DNA of 64,000 nt from NCBI RefSeq assembly GCF_020037015.1, contig NZ_JAIQDE010000024.1, forward strand, positions 1 to 64,000, read 5' to 3'. Source of the DNA: Corallococcus sp. AS-1-6. GTDB lineage: Bacteria > Myxococcota > Myxococcia > Myxococcales > Myxococcaceae. A model generated the notes under the pieces. The model was not told where the DNA came from and did not search any database. It saw only the letters and a list, made by a program, of their open reading frames with translations. The translations under genes and the position numbers were made by a program. Shown here piece by piece: positions 35,350 through 53,500 of this stretch; position 1 is the first letter of the stretch; each line of letters starts with the position of its first letter.

Positions 35350-35364
35350 CAGGTGAGACAGAAC

Positions 35365-35444
35365 GGCCGGGACACACGCGGAAGTACGCTACCGTTGCTT
35401 CCTTCCGGACCTGGCGGGGTTCGCGCCCCCACGTTGTCCCGACC
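35365..35444 (-). ncRNA. ffs: 4.5S signal recognition particle RNA
   Basis: The universally conserved SRP loop GGTCCGGAAGGAAGCA is present near the middle. The ends GGTCGGGACA and TGTCCCGGCC pair, giving a hairpin RNA of about 80 nt or slightly more, a typical small bacterial form. It binds Ffh to target membrane proteins. It is the last element of a minus-strand series with tRNA-Ser genes and tadA; no separate promoter is evident, so it may be processed from the tRNA transcript. Confidence 0.93.
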
Positions 35445-35478
35445 ACAAAATCCGTGCTGCTGCTTCGAAAATAACAAC

Positions 35479-35564
35479 GGAGAGGGTGGGATTCGAACCC
35501 ACGATACCCTTTCAGATATACACGCGTTCCAGGCGTGCGCCTTCAACCGCTCGGCCACCTCTCC
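35479..35564 (-). tRNA. tRNA-Ser (anticodon GGA)
   Basis: 86-nt type II tRNA with acceptor ends GGAGAGG and CCTCTCC, anticodon loop CTGGAAC, a long variable arm (TATCTGAAAGGGTA) and T-loop GTTCGAATC. It reads UCC and UCU. Confidence 0.97.
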
Positions 35565-35578
35565 AGAGACTTTGGAGC

Positions 35579-35664
35579 GGAGAGCGTAGGATTCGAACCT
35601 ACGGTACCGTTGCCGGTACGCCTGATTTCGAGTCAGGTGCCTTCGACCACTCGGCCAGCTCTCC
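35579..35664 (-). tRNA. tRNA-Ser (anticodon CGA)
   Basis: 86-nt type II tRNA with acceptor ends GGAGAGC and GCTCTCC, anticodon loop CTCGAAA and long variable arm (TACCGGCAACGGTA). It reads UCG. It lies 14 nt upstream of tRNA-Ser(GGA). Confidence 0.97.
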
Positions 35665-35671
35665 AGAATAT

Positions 35672-36139
35672 TCAGTTTTCGCGTCGCTTCGCGCGCAGGC
35701 GCTCGAAGAACGTCTTGAGAAGCTGGCGACTCTCTTCCGCCAGGATGCCGCTTGTGACCTGAAGCCGGTGGTTGTGCCGGGGCTCTTCCACCAGGTTGTA
35801 CAGCGAGCCGACCGCACCCGCTTTCGGGTCCATTGTACCAAAGACGAGTCGGGTGACACGAGACTGCACCAGCGCACCGGCGCACATGGCACACGGTTCC
35901 AGCGTCACGTAGAGGGTCACCCCGGAGAGCCGCCACGCATCGCGTGCTTTCGCGGCGGCGGCGAGGGCAATCATTTCGGCGTGGGCGAAGGGGTTCCGGT
36001 CGCATTCGCGGCGGTTGAAACCCGTGCCAACGACGTTGCCGTCGAGCACCGCCACCGCACCAACCGGTACTTCCCCGAGTGAAGCCGCTTCCCGCGCGAG
36101 CTCTAAAGCCTGCTGCATGAAAGCGATGTCGTCACTCAT
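35672..36139 (-). CDS. tadA: tRNA-specific adenosine deaminase TadA
   Basis: 155-aa zinc enzyme that converts A34 of tRNA-Arg(ACG) to inosine. It has the cytidine-deaminase-type active site: HAEM (zinc ligand and catalytic Glu) and PCAMCAGAL (two zinc cysteines), with a family-typical C-terminal helix (LKTFFERLRAKR). Full length. It is sandwiched between tRNA-Ser(CGA), 7 nt downstream, and its own substrate gene tRNA-Arg(ACG), 27 nt upstream. No good Shine-Dalgarno precedes the ATG, so translation may depend on processing of the tRNA transcript. Confidence 0.97.
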   Translation of the reverse strand: MSDDIAFMQQALELAREAASLGEVPVGAVAVLDGNVVGTGFNRRECDRNPFAHAEMIALAAAAKARDAWRLSGVTLYVTLEPCAMCAGALVQSRVTRLVFGTMDPKAGAVGSLYNLVEEPRHNHRLQVTSGILAEESRQLLKTFFERLRAKRREN

Positions 36140-36166
36140 GAGACGTGCGCGCCAAAGAAGAAGTGC

Positions 36167-36240
36167 GCTCCCTGGAGGATTCGAACCTCCGGCCTTCGGA
36201 TTCGTAGTCCGACGCTCTATCCAGCTGAGCTAAGGGAGCA
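36167..36240 (-). tRNA. tRNA-Arg (anticodon ACG)
   Basis: 74-nt tRNA with acceptor ends GCTCCCT and AGGGAGC, anticodon loop CTACGAA and T-arm GTTCGAATC. CCA is not encoded. This is the bacterial tRNA that needs inosine at position 34, made by the neighbouring TadA. Confidence 0.97.
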
Positions 36241-36272
36241 TTTCTTCCGGCTGCTGCTTTACATCAAGTGGC

Positions 36273-36358
36273 GGAGAGAGAGGGATTCGAACCCTCGATA
36301 CCCTTTCGAGTATGCAGGTTTAGCAAACCTGTGCCTTCAGCCTCTCGGCCATCTCTCC
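36273..36358 (-). tRNA. tRNA-Ser (anticodon GCT)
   Basis: 86-nt type II tRNA with acceptor ends GGAGAGA and TCTCTCC, anticodon loop TTGCTAA and long variable arm (TACTCGAAAGGGTA). It reads AGC and AGU. Confidence 0.97.
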
Positions 36359-36401
36359 AACTCTTCTCTGTCAAAGAACCACGAAACTCAAGCTCAAAAT
36401 C

Positions 36402-36487
36402 GGAGGCGGTAGGATTCGAACCTACGGAAGGCTTTCACCTTCTGCGGTTTTCAAGACCGCTGCCTTCAACCGCTCGGCCACGCCTCC
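36402..36487 (-). tRNA. tRNA-Ser (anticodon TGA)
   Basis: 86-nt type II tRNA with acceptor ends GGAGGCG and CGCCTCC, anticodon loop CTTGAAA and long variable arm (GAAGGTGAAAGCCTTC). It reads UCA and UCG. First tRNA of the series after serS. Confidence 0.97.
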
Positions 36488-47839: not shown

Positions 47840-48694
47840 ATGCTGGAGCGTTTCAGCGACAAGGTGAAGAAGGGCCTGCGCGGCTGGACCGAGCGCATGG
47901 CCGGCGAGCAGCAGTCCGACCAACTCCAGGCCCTGGCCCGGACGGAGAACGAGTACGGGGTGGACCCGTTCGGGTTCAACCTGGACTACAGCCTGGCCGC
48001 CATCGCCCCGTTCATGTGGCTCTACCGCCACTACTTCCGCGTGGAGGCCTACGGCGCGGACCGCATCCCGGCGGGGCGGGTGCTGCTGGTGTCCAACCAC
48101 TCCGGCCAGCTCCCCCTGGACGGCGCGATGATTGGCATCGCCCTGATGGTGGAGGGCAACCCGCCGCGCGCCATCCGCAGCATGGTGGAGAAGTGGGTGC
48201 CGTCCCTGCCGTACGTCTCCACGTTCATGGCGCGCGTGGGCCAGATTGTCGGCACGCCGGAGAACTGCCGGCGGCTGCTGGAGGCGGAGGAGGCCATCCT
48301 GGTGTTCCCGGAGGGCACGCGCGGGCTCAACAAGCTGTGGCCCCAGCGCTACCAGCTCCAGGAGTTCGGCCTGGGCTTCATGCGCCTGGCGCTGGAGACG
48401 AACACGCCCATCGTGCCCATCGCCGTGGTGGGCGCGGAGGAGCAGGCGCCCGCGCTGATGAACCTGAAGCCGGTGGCGAAGCTGCTCGGCTTCCCGTCCT
48501 TCCCCATCACCCCCACGGGCACGCCCTTCCCGCTGCCCACGAAGTACCGCATCTACTTCGGCGACGCGCTCCACTTCACCGGCCGCGCGGACGACGAGGA
48601 CAGCGAACTGGACAAGAAGGTGCGCACCGTGAAGGCCTCCATCCAGGCGATGCTCCACCAGGGTCTCAAGGAACGCCGGGGCGTGTTCTGGTGA
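47840..48694 (+). CDS. PlsC-like lysophospholipid/1-acyl-glycerol-phosphate acyltransferase
   Basis: 284-aa acyltransferase. The catalytic segment LLVSNHSGQLPLDGAMI holds the His and Asp of the PlsC site (spacing wider than the usual HxxxxD), and FPEGTRGLNKLW is the glycerol-phosphate-binding motif. An N-terminal hydrophobic patch (LAAIAPFMWLYRHYFRV) may touch the membrane. The ATG at 47840 has AAGGAG at the right distance. The stop overlaps the epimerase start (GTGA). The wider His-Asp spacing suggests an acceptor other than lysophosphatidate. Confidence 0.88.
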   Translation: MLERFSDKVKKGLRGWTERMAGEQQSDQLQALARTENEYGVDPFGFNLDYSLAAIAPFMWLYRHYFRVEAYGADRIPAGRVLLVSNHSGQLPLDGAMIGIALMVEGNPPRAIRSMVEKWVPSLPYVSTFMARVGQIVGTPENCRRLLEAEEAILVFPEGTRGLNKLWPQRYQLQEFGLGFMRLALETNTPIVPIAVVGAEEQAPALMNLKPVAKLLGFPSFPITPTGTPFPLPTKYRIYFGDALHFTGRADDEDSELDKKVRTVKASIQAMLHQGLKERRGVFW

Positions 48695-49653
48695 GCCCCG
48701 CGAACGAGGAGAAGGACGGCGCGGTGGACAAGCGCCCGGCCGTCGTCGTCACCGGCATCAGCGGCAACCTGGGCCGCACGCTGGCGAAGCTGCTGCACAA
48801 GCGCGAGCGCATCATCGGCATCGACCGGCGCCCCTTCATCGGGAAGCCGAAGGACGTCGAGATGCACCAGTTGGACCTGCGCAAGAAGAAGGCGGAGGAC
48901 GTCTTCCGCAAGAACGAGGTCCGCGCCGTCATCCACATGGGCATCATGCATGACCCGCGCATGAGCGAGGAGGAGCACCACTCGTTCAACGTCGTGGGGA
49001 CCACGCGCCTGTTGGAGTACTGCGCGAAGTACGGCGTGAAGAAGGTGGTGGTGCTGTCCTCGGCGAACGTCTACGGCCCCAGCCCGGACAACTCCAACTT
49101 CCTCACGGAGGACGCGCCGCTGATGGCCGCCAGCCGCTTCTCCGGCGTGCGCGACCTCATCGAAGTGGACATGCTGGCGCACAGCTTCTTCTGGAAGCAC
49201 CCCGACATCGAGACGGTCATCCTGCGGCCCGTCCACATCGTCGGGCCCACCATCAAGAACGCGCCGTCCAACTACCTGCGGCTGCGCCACCCGTGGACCA
49301 TGGCCGGCTTCGACCCCATGGTGCAGCTCATCCACGTGGAGGACGTCGCCCGCGCCATGGTGGAGGCCCTGCGCCCGGAGCCCAAGGGCGTCTACAACGT
49401 CGTGGGCCCCGGCCAGGTGCCCCTGTCCGCCGTCCTGCGCGAGCTGGGCCACACCGCGATCCCCGTGCCACACCCCGTGGCCCGGCCCCTGTTGGGCCTG
49501 ATGTTCCGCTACCGGCTGGCCAACTTCCCGCCGCCGGAGCTGGACCACATCCAGTTCCTCTGCGCCGTGGACGGCAACCGCTGGGTCCAGGACGTGGGCT
49601 GGAAGGCCCGGCACTCCATGCGCGACACCATCCGCTCCGTCGTCGGGGAGTAG
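48691..49653 (+). CDS. NAD-dependent sugar epimerase/dehydratase (extended SDR)
   Basis: About 320 aa. Rossmann motif VVVTGISGNLGRTLAKLL, acidic pair DRR after the second strand, HMGIMHDP, and an active-site segment VVLSSANVYGP. The usual Tyr-x3-Lys is not obvious: the position reads SRFSGVRDLIEVD, so it may be a non-catalytic or atypical SDR. The GTG at 48691 overlaps the acyltransferase stop; a GTG at 48724 with GGAGAAGGA just upstream is an equally good start and removes 11 unconserved residues. The pairing with an acyltransferase suggests a lipid role. Confidence 0.84.
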   Translation: MSPANEEKDGAVDKRPAVVVTGISGNLGRTLAKLLHKRERIIGIDRRPFIGKPKDVEMHQLDLRKKKAEDVFRKNEVRAVIHMGIMHDPRMSEEEHHSFNVVGTTRLLEYCAKYGVKKVVVLSSANVYGPSPDNSNFLTEDAPLMAASRFSGVRDLIEVDMLAHSFFWKHPDIETVILRPVHIVGPTIKNAPSNYLRLRHPWTMAGFDPMVQLIHVEDVARAMVEALRPEPKGVYNVVGPGQVPLSAVLRELGHTAIPVPHPVARPLLGLMFRYRLANFPPPELDHIQFLCAVDGNRWVQDVGWKARHSMRDTIRSVVGE

Positions 49654-49682
49654 CGGCTTTCCGTGGGGCCCCGCGCCGGTTC

Positions 49683-49700
49683 CCTGACAGTCATGTCAGG
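49683..49700. promoter_or_regulatory. Inverted repeat 1, candidate enhancer site
   Basis: CCTGACA, GTCA, TGTCAGG. Same arms and same 4-bp spacer length as the element at 49728-49745; centre-to-centre distance 45 bp. Located about 166 bp before the predicted sigma54 start site, where activators of sigma54 promoters usually bind. Confidence 0.6.
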
Positions 49701-49727
49701 GGGGACGTGGCGGAGTGGCAGGGAGGG

Positions 49728-49745
49728 CCTGACAACACTGTCAGG
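49728..49745. promoter_or_regulatory. Inverted repeat 2, candidate enhancer site
   Basis: CCTGACA, ACAC, TGTCAGG. The arms are identical to the first repeat while the spacer differs, which points to selection on the arms. Centre about 122 bp before the predicted sigma54 start site. Confidence 0.6.
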
Positions 49746-49830
49746 CATGGGACGGTGGCGACGGGGAGTGAGGGCCGCCAAGTGCCTGAATTCCCGTGGG
49801 GAGCGGGGGTGGGGCAGGGGGGCTCGGCGG

Positions 49831-49847
49831 TTGGCACTCGCATTGCT
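49831..49847 (+). promoter_or_regulatory. Sigma54 (RpoN) promoter
   Basis: TTGGCACTCGCATTGCT. TGGCAC and TTGC are exact, separated by five bases, so GG (-24) and GC (-12) have the correct spacing; this differs from the consensus YTGGCACGrNNNTTGCW only at the G after CAC. Predicted start of transcription near 49858. Confidence 0.72.
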
Positions 49848-49857
49848 CTAGAGACCA

Positions 49858-49984
49858 GGCAACACGGCGGGGTCGCAGCGGGCCGGAAGTACCGCGCGAC
49901 CTCGTCACCCTGGTAGGGGGTTCCATGGGGGAACCCTCGACGCCCATCGTCTCGGCCGGCCCCGAGACGGTGGGCGACTTTTTT
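49858..49984 (+). ncRNA. Candidate sigma54-dependent small RNA, about 127 nt
   Basis: Between the predicted start and a strong terminator there is no convincing reading frame, but there are stem-loops in series: GGTCGC (49871-49876) with GCGACC (49896-49901); GGGTTCC (49918-49924) with GGAACCC (49930-49936); and the terminator stem at 49941-49976. The loop of the second stem and its flanks are G-rich (GGGGG), a possible pairing region for C-rich targets. It points towards the lipoprotein gene on the other strand. The developmental RNA Pxr of M. xanthus is a recalled precedent for such an RNA. A long 3' UTR of the epimerase is the alternative. Confidence 0.6.
49941..49984 (+). terminator. Strong intrinsic terminator
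   Basis: CGCCCATCGTCTCGG (49941-49955) pairs with CCGAGACGGTGGGCG (49962-49976), 15 bp with one G-U pair and a 6-nt loop, followed by AC and six Ts. Orientation is plus only. Confidence 0.9.
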
Positions 49985-49989
49985 GCGGG

Positions 49990-50433
49990 CTACGGGGACG
50001 GCGGCGCCGCCTGGGGCTCCAGCTCTCCGTCGAAGGGCCCGGACTGCTGCTTCTCCAGCAGCCAGACGCCGTCCCGGAAGATGAACTCCGAGGTGACGGT
50101 GTCGTTCTGCTCGGTGACGGAGGGCAGGCGCATCCACTGGATGCGGCTGTGGACGGTGGCGCTCCGGCCGTCGTCGGCGAGCTTCACGGCCTCGATTTCG
50201 TAGTCGGTGACGGTGAGGTCGCGGTCGTCGTGGAGCTCGCGGCGCTTGCGCTCGAAGTCCTGGCGCTCCTCGGGGACGAGGAAGGTGGACAGGGCGCGGT
50301 AGTTCCTCCAGCGCAGGTTCTTGTGGAAGCCCTCGACGACGGGGCGGAGCGCTTCCAGGTCCGACTTGGGCGGGGTGTGGGCGCAGGCCCCACCGAGGAC
50401 CAGGGCGACCATCAGGGCAGACAGGCGTTTCAT
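49990..50433 (-). CDS. Small lipoprotein of unknown function
   Basis: 147 aa. Lipoprotein signal MKRLSALMVALVLGGAC, then one small alpha+beta domain (LRPVVEGFHKNLRWRNYRAL ... VTDYEIEAVKLADDGRSATV ... FIFRDGVWLLEK) which resembles the NTF2/SnoaL-like cone fold often seen in secreted bacterial proteins. It ends in a Pro-rich tail. It is divergent from the large TM-TPR gene (start 50526), so the two may share a control region at 50434-50525. Confidence 0.82.
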   Translation of the reverse strand: MKRLSALMVALVLGGACAHTPPKSDLEALRPVVEGFHKNLRWRNYRALSTFLVPEERQDFERKRRELHDDRDLTVTDYEIEAVKLADDGRSATVHSRIQWMRLPSVTEQNDTVTSEFIFRDGVWLLEKQQSGPFDGELEPQAAPPSP

Positions 50434-50525
50434 GGCCGCGACGCTAGCAGCCGCTGGGCGGAACGGACGAGGGCAGTGGTATGGTCCGCGCTCCCCCGCT
50501 TAGCGCACCGGAGTCGCGACTCAAC

Positions 50526-53500
50526 ATGGCCAAGTCGATGGTGGAGCGTTACGAGCAGCTCCTCCGGCAGGACCCGACCTCTTCCGTCTTCGTGGAGCTG
50601 GCGAAGGCGTTGCTGGAGAAGGGAGACGCGCAGCGCACCATCGAGGTGTGCACGGAGGGCATCTCCCACCACCCCACGTCCATCGTGGGGCGGGTGCTGT
50701 GGGGCAAGGCGCTCATCCAGTTGGGGCGGCCCGCGGAGGCGATGGAGCAGTTCGACCAGGCCATCGCCATCGAGCGGGACAACCCGTACGCCTACAACCT
50801 CATCGGCGACGTGCTCCTGCAACGCGGGCTGTACCGCTCCGCGCTGCCGATTCTCCGCAAGGCCGTGGCGCTGCAGCCCAACAACGGGCGCGTGAAGCAG
50901 TGGTTGGATCAGGCCCAGCAGGCGCTGTCCGGTGGACCGGCCCCCATCTTCGAGGACCTGGGCGTCCTGGCGACCCCCGCGGCCGCGCCGGAGGAGGACG
51001 CGCCGGAGCCGCCGGGGCCGGAAGCCGCTCCGTCCGCGTTCGAGGCGCGTGCCGCCGCGGCGGCGGGACTGGAGCCGCGCCGCGCTGCCCGGACGGAGAC
51101 GCCGGCGGGTGGAACGGACGCGCAGGCGGCCTCCAGGGTCGCCTCCGTCGAGGCGCATGGCGGGCCCACGGCTCCCATCGGGACGCCGGTGCCGGAGGAC
51201 GCGCGGGGCCCCGTGGAGGCGGGTGAGCAGGAGCTCGGTGCGCCACGGGATGGCGCGAATCCGATGGATGCTGCGTCCGGTAGCCCGTCGGATCCAGGGC
51301 AGGAGCCGGGTTCGGGCCGGGGGCGTGCGGCGTCGGGCGAGGGCGCGGATCCGGCGAGCGAAGGAGCTTCGGCCTCGGGCCAGGAGCCCGGTGCGGACGC
51401 CCCCGCGGATCCGGTGGCCGCCGCGCCGTCGGATCCGGAGCAGGGTTCGGAGGTTCCTCCCGCTTCCGTGCAAGCGGCGGATCCGGGAGCCTCCAGCCGC
51501 AAGCGCGGGTCCGGGATGCTGGCGGATCTCCCAGACGCTCCTCCCTCGGATGAACCCTCCGCGTCGCAGGGCGGGGGACTGCTCGGAGACCTTCCGCCTC
51601 CGGAGGCGGTGCGGGCCCGCCCGGCCGCGCCGGTGACGCAGGCTCCGGTCGCTTCGGCTTCGGGTGGCAAGCGCTCGCTGCTGGACGACATCCCGGACGC
51701 GACGGAGCTGGCGGCGGCCGCGGCCCGCAACAAGGCGGCGGCGAACGCGAAGGACACGGAGGCGCTCGCGGCGAAGTACGAGCGCGAGATGCACGAGAAG
51801 ATCGCCAAGGAGCGGGCGAAGCAGTCCCTCCTGGAGCGCTATGGCGCGAAGACCGTGGCGCTCTTCGTGGCCCTCATCTTCCTGGGCGCGAGCGCGGGCT
51901 TCTTCATCCTCTACCGCTCCCGCCAGGGCGGCCAGACGCTGTCGGAGACGCTGGAGCTCGCGAAGCGCGCCGTGGCGCAGGACACGGGCGCGTCGCTGGA
52001 CGAAGCGCTCCGTCAGCTCGACCGCGCTCGTGACATGGACGAGGCGAGCCCCGCCGCCTGGGCGCTCGCGGGCTACGCGCACGCGCTGCGCTACCTGGAC
52101 CACGGCGCCAACGCGGAGGACCGCCGGCTCGCGCTGGAGGCGCTGGAGAAGCCGGGCGTGAAGGACGGCTTCAACGGCCTGGTGCTGGCCACCAACGCGC
52201 TCGTCGCCGACGACCGGGCCCGCGAGGCCGCGAACCGCGCGCTGCTCGCCTCGCAGGACGACGTGACGGAGGTGCACGCGCTCGCGGGCAGCCTGCTCAT
52301 CGCCGCCAAGGACGAGAAGAAGGCCCTGGACCGCTTCGACCGCGCGCTCAAGGCGTCGCCGGGCAACGTCCGCGCGCTGGTGGCGCTGGGCCACTACTAC
52401 CTCGCCTCCGAGGACTTCGCGCAGGCGCTGGAGATGTTCAAGCGCGCGCGCGACGTCTCCAAGGAGCACCCCGCCGCCCGCATCGGGATGGCGGAGAGCC
52501 GGCTCGCGCTGGAGCAGGACCTGGACGCGGCGCTGGCGGACGTGGCGCCGCTCGCGCAGGACCCGAAGCTGCCCCCCGCGCTCCAGCCCCGTCAGCAACT
52601 GGTGCACGGCGAAATCCTGTCCGCGCTGGGCAGGTACGACGAGGCGCGCACCCTGCTGTCCAAGGGCACGCAGGGGCCGCTGGCCATGGACTTCCAGTTG
52701 GCGCTCGGGGCCGCGGGCCGCGCGGCGGGCAAGCTGGAGGCCGCGCAGCAGGCCTACGAGGCCGCGCTGAAGCTGCAGCCCAAGAGCGAGACCGCTAAGG
52801 AGGGCCTGGGGCGCACGCTGCTGGATCGCGACCGGGAGAAGGACGCCCTGCTGCGCCTGGAGGCCGACGGGGGCCGCAAGGTGTCGCTGGTGCGGGGCGC
52901 GGCGTACGCGCGGCTCGGGGACTGGAAGCGCGCCCGCGCGGAGCTGGGCAAGACGCGCGTGAACGACCGCTATCCGCCGGAGGCCGTCGCGTGGCTCGCG
53001 CTGGCGGACGCGCACGAGGGCAACGCCGCCCAGGCGCGCGACGTGCTGGAGAAGGCCGTGGCCAAGAAGCCCCGCACGGACCTGCGCGTGGCGCTGGGGC
53101 AGGTGTACTGGCGCGAGCGCGCGCTCGACAAGGCGCAGGCCCAGTTCGACGAGGCGATGAAGGACCCGCGCGACTACGAGGGCGCGTGCTCGCTGGGGCG
53201 GCTGCTCCTGTCTCGCGGCCTGCCGGACATGGCGCTCAAGCCGCTGACGCAGGCGGTGGAGCGCAACGGCTCGCACGGCGAGGCCCGCGACGCCCTGGGC
53301 CGCACGCTCCTGGCGCTGGGCCGCACGCCGGAGGCGCTGAAGCAGTTCGAGGCGTGGCAGTTGGACAACCCGGGCAGCGCCGCCGCGCAGAAGGGCTTCG
53401 CGCTGGCGCTGTACCAGTCCGGCCGCCGCAAGGAGGCGGAAGGGGCGTCCGGCCGGGCGGTGAAGCTGGCGCCGGACGACGCGGAGGGGCAGCGGCTGCG

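Follow-up and report, generated by a model that had tools for sequence, protein, structure and literature searches.

A predicted small RNA gene with its own sigma54-type promoter lies behind an epimerase gene of Corallococcus sp. AS-1-6, and comparative sequence analysis leaves very little doubt that both the gene and the promoter are real. It appears to be a deeply conserved sigma54-dependent sRNA gene that is new to Rfam. As a whole, the data are best explained by an sRNA that is specific to the family, depends on sigma54 and IHF, and belongs to an envelope regulon, where it probably works through multivalent contacts. We consider this explanation reasonably probable.

The locus and its DNA elements

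The window analyzed here is a stretch of 64,000 nucleotides (contig NZ_JAIQDE010000024.1, positions 1 to 64,000). Two genes outside the RNA unit provide its context: upstream, on the plus strand, a gene of the NAD-dependent epimerase/dehydratase family (48682–49653, start uncertain), and downstream, on the minus strand, a convergent gene of 147 aa (49990–50433). The N-terminus of the latter is lipoprotein-like, as judged by eye, and the protein had no Pfam or NCBIfam match. Elsewhere in the window, 35357–36487 holds a dense cluster of minus-strand RNA genes: one for a bacterial small SRP RNA and five for tRNAs, of which four measure 87 nt and one 74 nt.

Two inverted repeats (dyads) of the form CCTGACA-N4-TGTCAGG, with identical arms and starts 45 nt apart, are located at 49683–49700 and 49728–49745. 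They are the predicted distal and proximal sites of an activator (enhancer-binding protein, EBP), with centers about 166 and 121 bp before the predicted RNA start. With up to two mismatches allowed, they were the only dyads in the window, compared with 0.22 expected, and two or more appeared in only one of 100 shuffles. The whole genome of 9.5 Mb contained three exact dyads, two of them at the RNA locus, and a single one with one mismatch, while the reversed-pattern control gave none.

The predicted sigma54 promoter, with the −24/−12 elements TGGCACTCGCATTGC, follows at 49832–49846 on the plus strand and is conserved as TGGC-N7-TTGC in relatives. The stricter TGGCAC-N5-TTGC occurs once in the window (0.09 expected). 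Because 8 of 100 shuffles also contain one, the site by itself is not decisive, and it is the conservation that supplies the weight. Between the dyads and the promoter lies an IHF-type site, ATTCAGGCACTTG (49779–49791, minus strand), with one mismatch to WATCARNNNNTTR, which we took to be the IHF consensus when scoring sites. Most Corallococcus relatives have no mismatch to it.

The predicted small RNA, of about 127 nt, extends from 49858 to 49984 on the plus strand, its start being placed by the spacing from the promoter. It folds into three stem-loops at −76.9 kcal/mol (z = −5.5), and none of 200 shuffles did as well. SL1 (49866–49906, plus strand) is a lineage-specific 5′ stem-loop, indicated by the fold and by covarying inner pairs. 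The other two are backed by fold, alignment and covariation: SL2 (49916–49938, plus strand), a conserved hairpin with the near-invariant loop region CCAUNGGGG, and SL3 (49941–49984, plus strand), an intrinsic terminator hairpin with the loop region CGGCCGGCCCCG, followed by T6. Just ahead of SL2, the folds leave a short stretch unpaired. The terminator, 49941–49976 plus T6, is the sole terminator-like site in 49600–50550 (0.3 expected), and on the minus strand no T run follows the hairpin.

No conserved protein frame was seen across the RNA. The ATG of the SL2 loop reads CCAT-N in the aligned relatives, so that we rejected a peptide reading. A search of 49640–50010 against Rfam 15 (4227 families) gave no match at gathering score, the best scoring 17.5 bits where the cut-off was 79.

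These elements and the fold, together with their conservation, come directly from computation. They agree with the original prediction, which, from this one sequence, had described the paired dyads, the sigma54 promoter, a structured RNA of about 127 nt, a T6 terminator and the lack of a convincing protein frame. The parts stood, but the IHF-type site, the short and long forms of the RNA and the tandem modules of Myxococcus had been missed.

Conservation and covariation in the Myxococcaceae

At E 0.01, a DNA search of 118 relatives, 70 of them belonging to the family Myxococcaceae, found matches in 83 genomes. The RNA unit was present in 68 of the 70 family genomes. The two lacking it form genus g7: one had no match (G021), the other a match of 20 nt (G042), which we treated as noise. 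The 14 matching genomes outside the family were also treated as noise (20–54 nt, E 3e-4 to 0.01). An exact pattern scan over one genome per species, 84,980 species in total, matched 54 stretches, of which 53 are titled as Myxococcaceae genera, Myxococcales, Cystobacterineae or broader bacterial bins. The exception, L311 (BNCN01000011.1), is titled Comamonas sp. KCTC 72670 and has three RNA copies; it looks mislabelled and appears to belong to the Myxococcus genus. The RNA is also carried by Myxococcus xanthus AM003. A scan of viral contigs gave no match.

Conservation within the locus is deepest at 49915–49984, the SL2-SL3 module. In the alignment of this module, 61 distinct sequences represent the 68 loci, with tandem arrays represented by their last module. 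Among the 23 pairs, 11 changed on both sides, and 98.7% of the cells were paired. Of five covariation measures, four exceeded every one of the 500 shuffles, whereas the count of further pair types did not rise above them (20 against a mean of 20.9, with 439 of 500 as high). When the structure was slid along the alignment as a control, pairing dropped to 35–60%. The SL3 loop region is invariant in the 61 aligned sequences and the SL2 loop region shows a single departure (L070), although the loci had been collected by similarity, which biases toward invariant letters. The Corallococcus genomes, furthermore, are close relatives and their counts are not independent.

The promoter TGGC-N7-TTGC precedes the RNA in 66 of the 68 loci, and the two departures differ by one letter each, in the −12 element of L049 and in the −24 element of L071. 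Loss of the promoter and the stems in relatives, which the original prediction had named as grounds for giving it up, did not occur.

The RNA comes in two forms. In the short form (31 loci), the module begins 32–43 nt past the start of the −24 element, and in the long form (35 loci), with SL1 inserted, 73–87 nt past it. SL1 was aligned for 29 of the 33 distinct long forms (L027, L069, L072 and L074 were left out), and its inner pairs swap between G-C and C-G from one sequence to another. Probably, the short SL2-SL3 form is ancestral and SL1 was added in many genera.

The upstream motifs were counted in those 60 of the 66 loci with 200 nt of upstream sequence. A dyad with at least 10 of 12 letters was found in 51 of the 60, where shuffles predict 0.45%. 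IHF-type sites, with one mismatch allowed, were found in 42 and start 37–60 nt before the −24 element (0.36% predicted). The three genomes of g21 (L075, L076 and L077; 2.1–2.7 Mb) have no dyad upstream of the RNA, but instead paired TTGCATTTTGCA-type motifs. These genomes are small-genome Cystobacterineae bins.

Independence from the neighboring genes

The usual gene order is epimerase, RNA, convergent 147-aa gene and TPR gene. Such an order raises the question of whether the hairpins are merely the 3′ UTR or terminator of the epimerase mRNA, with no independent gene, an outcome that the original prediction had also named as speaking against itself. In 57 of the 68 loci, an epimerase match does lie 129–277 nt before the module, and six of the remaining 11 loci sit at the end of a contig. 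However, the sigma54 promoter is retained almost throughout, in 66 of 68 loci, and the upstream gene is not always the epimerase. In g21 (L075, L076, L077) it is a divergent gene, with a UvrB-interaction domain as in Mfd (the domain was scanned in L075 only). In G016, a different gene stands upstream of the RNA, and in G028 an inverted block has placed the lipoprotein-like gene there, in the same direction as the RNA. In addition, a second copy in G023 sits elsewhere with its own dyad and promoter. We therefore find the 3′-UTR reading barely credible.

The convergent gene invites another reading, that of a cis-antisense device or a bidirectional terminator. The two genes are arranged tail to tail, the matched adjacent convergent gene ends −30 to +183 nt from the module, and the minus-strand copy of SL3 also scores with the RNA model. 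Against this, six g5 genomes (L047, L048, L049, L055, L058 and L064) keep the RNA and its loops with no lipoprotein-like gene close behind, in the 1.5 kb viewed. In G028, the convergent-type gene lies upstream in the same orientation, and the minus strand lacks a T run past the hairpin. This makes a role confined to the convergent gene very improbable.

In all of these rearranged loci (g21, G028 and g5) the RNA persists, with an exact promoter except in L049. It is this persistence where the neighbors differ that disfavors both readings. The comparative evidence, in contrast, supports what the original prediction had proposed, namely an independent, putatively sigma54-dependent small RNA gene with tandem activator sites.

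Tandem modules and second copies

In Myxococcus (g24), two or three modules follow one another in all five genomes from the search of relatives. The inner copies finish with TCTTG and lack a complete T run; the last copy finishes with TTTCTTTT. Since the inner modules have lost most of the T run wherever their tails were read, the tandem copies likely share one transcript. Among named records titled Myxococcus, seven of nine have two or three copies and two have one (L316 and L321). In total, two or three head-to-tail SL2-SL3 modules were observed in L041, L029, L053, L054, L066, L289, L300, L301, L311, L324, L326 and L330.

The second RNA copy of G023, at G023:C6 (L123:3082-3303), is diverged and has its own dyad and sigma54 promoter; the usual copy is present as well.

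Comparison with Pxr and other regulatory RNAs

Pxr is a myxobacterial sRNA of M. xanthus, encoded downstream of the NtrC-like gene pxrR, according to the portions of PMC5568312 and PMC5684412 used here. The two RNAs have much in common: a sigma54-type promoter, as many as three stem-loops with a terminator at the end, and tandem paralogues in some genera. Even the IHF-like site is placed alike, with CAAGTGC-YTGA 41 nt before TGGCA in pxr and the corresponding site 41–54 nt before the −24 element in the new RNA. They differ in locus (the new RNA follows the epimerase gene, not pxrR), in the sequences of SL1, SL2 and SL3, in the upstream motif, and in the C7 loop in SL1 of Pxr, which is absent from the new RNA.

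The original prediction had suggested an RNA akin to Pxr, and this kinship did not hold. The genome of AS-1-6 has a separate pxr at G000:C82, downstream of an EBP gene, with the C7 loop as well as the SL2 motif derived from the primer. Given this separate locus and the difference in sequence, the new RNA is not a Pxr. Scores of the new-RNA model at pxr were at noise level: at 11.5–16.4 bits they overlap with scores elsewhere in those loci, which go up to 15.0. One pxr locus reached E 0.076. Homology was rejected.

Pxr blocks development as long as food is plentiful. A kinship in function, as a developmental, starvation-controlled sigma54 RNA, would still fit the shared design of promoter, IHF-like site, stem-loops, terminator and tandem copies. 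Sequence, locus and upstream motif are unlike those of pxr, though, and the RNA is kept in g21 (2.1–2.7 Mb), where the pxr pattern was not found in G035, the sole g21 genome searched. Moreover, the dyad is common to the RNA and lpxC, which points to the envelope rather than to development. We consider a developmental role rather improbable. As a separate observation, L078:1911-1989, along with L036, L037, L038 and L039, has an opposite-strand hairpin about 150 nt beyond pxr that scores weakly, at 12–15 bits, with the new-RNA model and is probably a terminator.

In Vibrio, LuxO and sigma54 drive the Qrr sRNAs, which are short, structured and encoded by several separate genes. The new RNA shares with them the principle of an activator and sigma54 leading to a short structured sRNA, and the TTGCATTTTGCA-type motifs of g21 resemble what we take to be the LuxO site. 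In contrast to the separate Qrr genes, the modules here stand in a row. Repeated motif-bearing modules within one transcript are typical of CsrB, RsmZ and CrcZ, RNAs that titrate proteins, and to that extent the new RNA is similar to them. It has no Rfam match to either group, nor to GlmY/GlmZ.

In functional terms, the closest parallel is GlmY with its activator QseF. In enterobacteria, GlmY is controlled by QseE/QseF (GlrK/GlrR), with a sigma54 promoter, IHF and several activator sites; QseF also drives rpoE, an envelope gene, and GlmY acts as a protein decoy, as far as the excerpts of PMC6075780 go. In both cases, an sRNA and an envelope gene would be under one activator, rpoE being that gene there and lpxC the one proposed here. 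An IHF-type site is present here too. The activator motif is TGT-N12-ACA for QseF, and the dyad here reads TGACA-N4-TGTCA; no EBP motif was seen in those neighborhoods of the RNA that were examined.

Within the excerpts of the myxobacterial sRNA literature covered, which include PMC11928866, PMC10217877, PMC11841059, PMC12288465 and PMC4551910, Pxr alone is discussed by name and no description of the new RNA was found. A survey of ncRNAs in M. xanthus (Whitworth and Swain 2020), cited in the part of PMC8538405 covered, may list it.

A probable regulon shared with lpxC

The single one-mismatch dyad in the genome of AS-1-6 is located upstream of lpxC (assigned by TIGR00325), together with a sigma54 site. 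lpxC represents the committing step of lipid A synthesis, which in Escherichia coli is set mainly by proteolysis. The third exact dyad is flanked by a pyridoxamine-oxidase-like gene and a gene for myo-inositol-phosphate synthase, with no TGGC-[AC]-[CT]-N4/5-TTGC found there, and another TGACA-N4-TGTCA falls inside a reading frame. A relaxed dyad-plus-promoter pattern gave 11 matches in this genome and as many in the control, and its non-sRNA matches were not used.

In 69 genomes, the strict dyad-plus-promoter pattern matched 40 places in 30 genomes, with one match for the reversed-pattern control. The usual RNA locus accounted for 22 of the 40 places. Twelve of the other 18 were examined, and these were the second RNA copy (G023), lpxC (G027), a T2SSC (gspC) gene (G038), a zinc metalloprotease gene (G002, G007, G009 and G029), and genes for lipoprotein-like or unnamed exported proteins (G018, G029, G038 and, twice, G082). 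In L124, L125, L126 and L129, a sigma54 promoter and a site of the TGAC-N6-GTCAC type lie ahead of the zinc metalloprotease gene. Peptidase_M10 was the best Pfam match of the one protein scanned, with M57 also over the cut-off. These promoters possibly belong to the regulon of another activator.

The lpxC promoter was then surveyed in genomes that are in many cases close relatives, and the counts below are not independent. Read locus by locus, 30 lpxC loci had TGGC-N7-TTGC exactly in 26 cases, with a first-letter variant in three and not at all in one (G021). A dyad with at least 10 of 12 letters stood within 400 nt in 19 of them, one contig being too short to judge. Among 37 lpxC loci, the promoter was found in the −140 to −30 zone in 28, compared with 0.1 expected from shuffles; this zone is narrower than that of the locus-wise reading, which would give 29. 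A dyad of the same quality and distance was found in 20 of the 37, with 0.5 expected. The spacing between dyad and promoter at lpxC was 165–166 nt in four genera (g1, which is Corallococcus, and those of G022, G018 and G026) and 127–139 nt in G019, G074 and G077. The promoter came without a convincing dyad (at most 8 of 12) in G023, G025, G016, G020, G031 and G034.

Presence of the lpxC promoter also follows that of the RNA system. Among 32 family genomes, some of them chosen specifically for this test of co-absence, the promoter was absent in five: the two g7 genomes, which lack the RNA, and the three of g21, in which the upstream motif of the RNA has changed. Altogether, these sequence patterns make a regulon shared by the RNA and lpxC fairly likely.

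A direct action of the RNA on lpxC is not indicated. In 21 genomes, pairing between the RNA and the lpxC leader had z values of −0.6 to +2.2 (negative being better than shuffled) and none beat the shuffles, in a rough test that ignored the folding of the RNA itself. Consequently, we read the link between the RNA and lpxC as co-regulation only. The result also bears on the possibility that this is a sigma54 sRNA acting by ordinary base-pairing, with the loops or the short 5′ tail as seeds for trans-encoded mRNAs. The loop conservation across 61 distinct sequences fits seeds and protein contacts equally, a short single-stranded stretch precedes SL2 in the folds, and base-pairing has precedents, proposed for Pxr and known for the Qrr RNAs. 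With no lpxC leader pairing beyond shuffles, and with tandem modules that are better suited to titration, we regard base-pairing as a serious possibility, albeit not a probable one.

Search for the activator

The Sigma54_activat family had 57 matches in the genome of AS-1-6, some of them weak. No dyad with at least 11 of 12 letters was found at 30 EBP loci from three genomes. Two candidates were considered: EBP d, from among the EBPs common to this genome (G000) and the small-genome g21 lineage, and EBP e.

EBP d (G000:C65:350821-352224) has no reciprocal-best match among the 29 sequences compared from G021, which is without the RNA, and its recognition helix is altered in g21. At its own locus, the one scanned out of 40 further EBP stretches, the best dyad scored 9 of 12. 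The best matches to EBP d had just 47–49% identity in G018, G024, G025 and G040, and the best E-value in G027, 1.8e-117, is in the range of paralogues. EBP d was rejected as the activator because all five genomes have both the RNA and the dyad. The completeness of these genomes is below 90% for G018 and G040, and 90–98% for G024, G025 and G027.

EBP e (G000:C81) is encoded directly before a gspC gene (T2SSC domain), which has its own sigma54 promoter and TGAC..GTCA sites. The spacing in these sites is one letter shorter than in the dyads of the RNA locus. EBP e is thus a weak candidate, on circumstantial grounds. A response-regulator EBP gene followed by a gspC-like gene was likewise observed in L150 (downstream of position 2472), L154, L155 and L258, with its own sigma54 promoter and TGAC-type sites, in genomes down to 2–3 Mb; the T2SSC domain was confirmed for L150.

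Proposed mechanism and significance

From the arrangement of the elements, we infer the following course of events. An NtrC-type EBP, activated by an envelope- or lipid-A-related signal, would bind the two dyads, which lie roughly 120 and 165 bp ahead of the RNA start, while IHF would bend the DNA at 49779–49791. Sigma54 RNA polymerase would then open the promoter at 49832–49846, giving rise to a 127-nt RNA that ends at the SL3 terminator. The same activator would drive lpxC, and the RNA would serve as the arm of this envelope regulon that acts after transcription.

Function likely resides in the SL2-SL3 module. Its stems covary, its loops are near-fixed, and in Myxococcus the modules are in tandem, all of which argues for multivalent contacts with a partner, most likely a titrated protein, rather than for a single antisense match. 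We favor titration tentatively, as a mechanism that is nearly, but not quite, an even bet.

A bolder version of this reading would be that lipid A synthesis in the Myxococcaceae is under a dedicated sigma54 regulon, in which one activator, via TGACA-N4-TGTCA, drives both lpxC and a sponge RNA, with the valency of the latter raised in Myxococcus by tandem duplication within the transcript. We put this forward as a speculation, which is unlikely to hold in every part.

Myxobacteria have very many sigma54 activators, as also reflected in the 57 matches in this genome, weak ones included. If the link to lpxC is true, the committing step of lipid A synthesis would be under sigma54 control, and the tandem arrays would offer a clean case of an RNA growing by the duplication of a functional module. 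The new RNA would be a second sigma54 sRNA beside Pxr. It occurs family-wide, including in small-genome relatives, and its presence in M. xanthus would make it directly testable in a standard laboratory organism.
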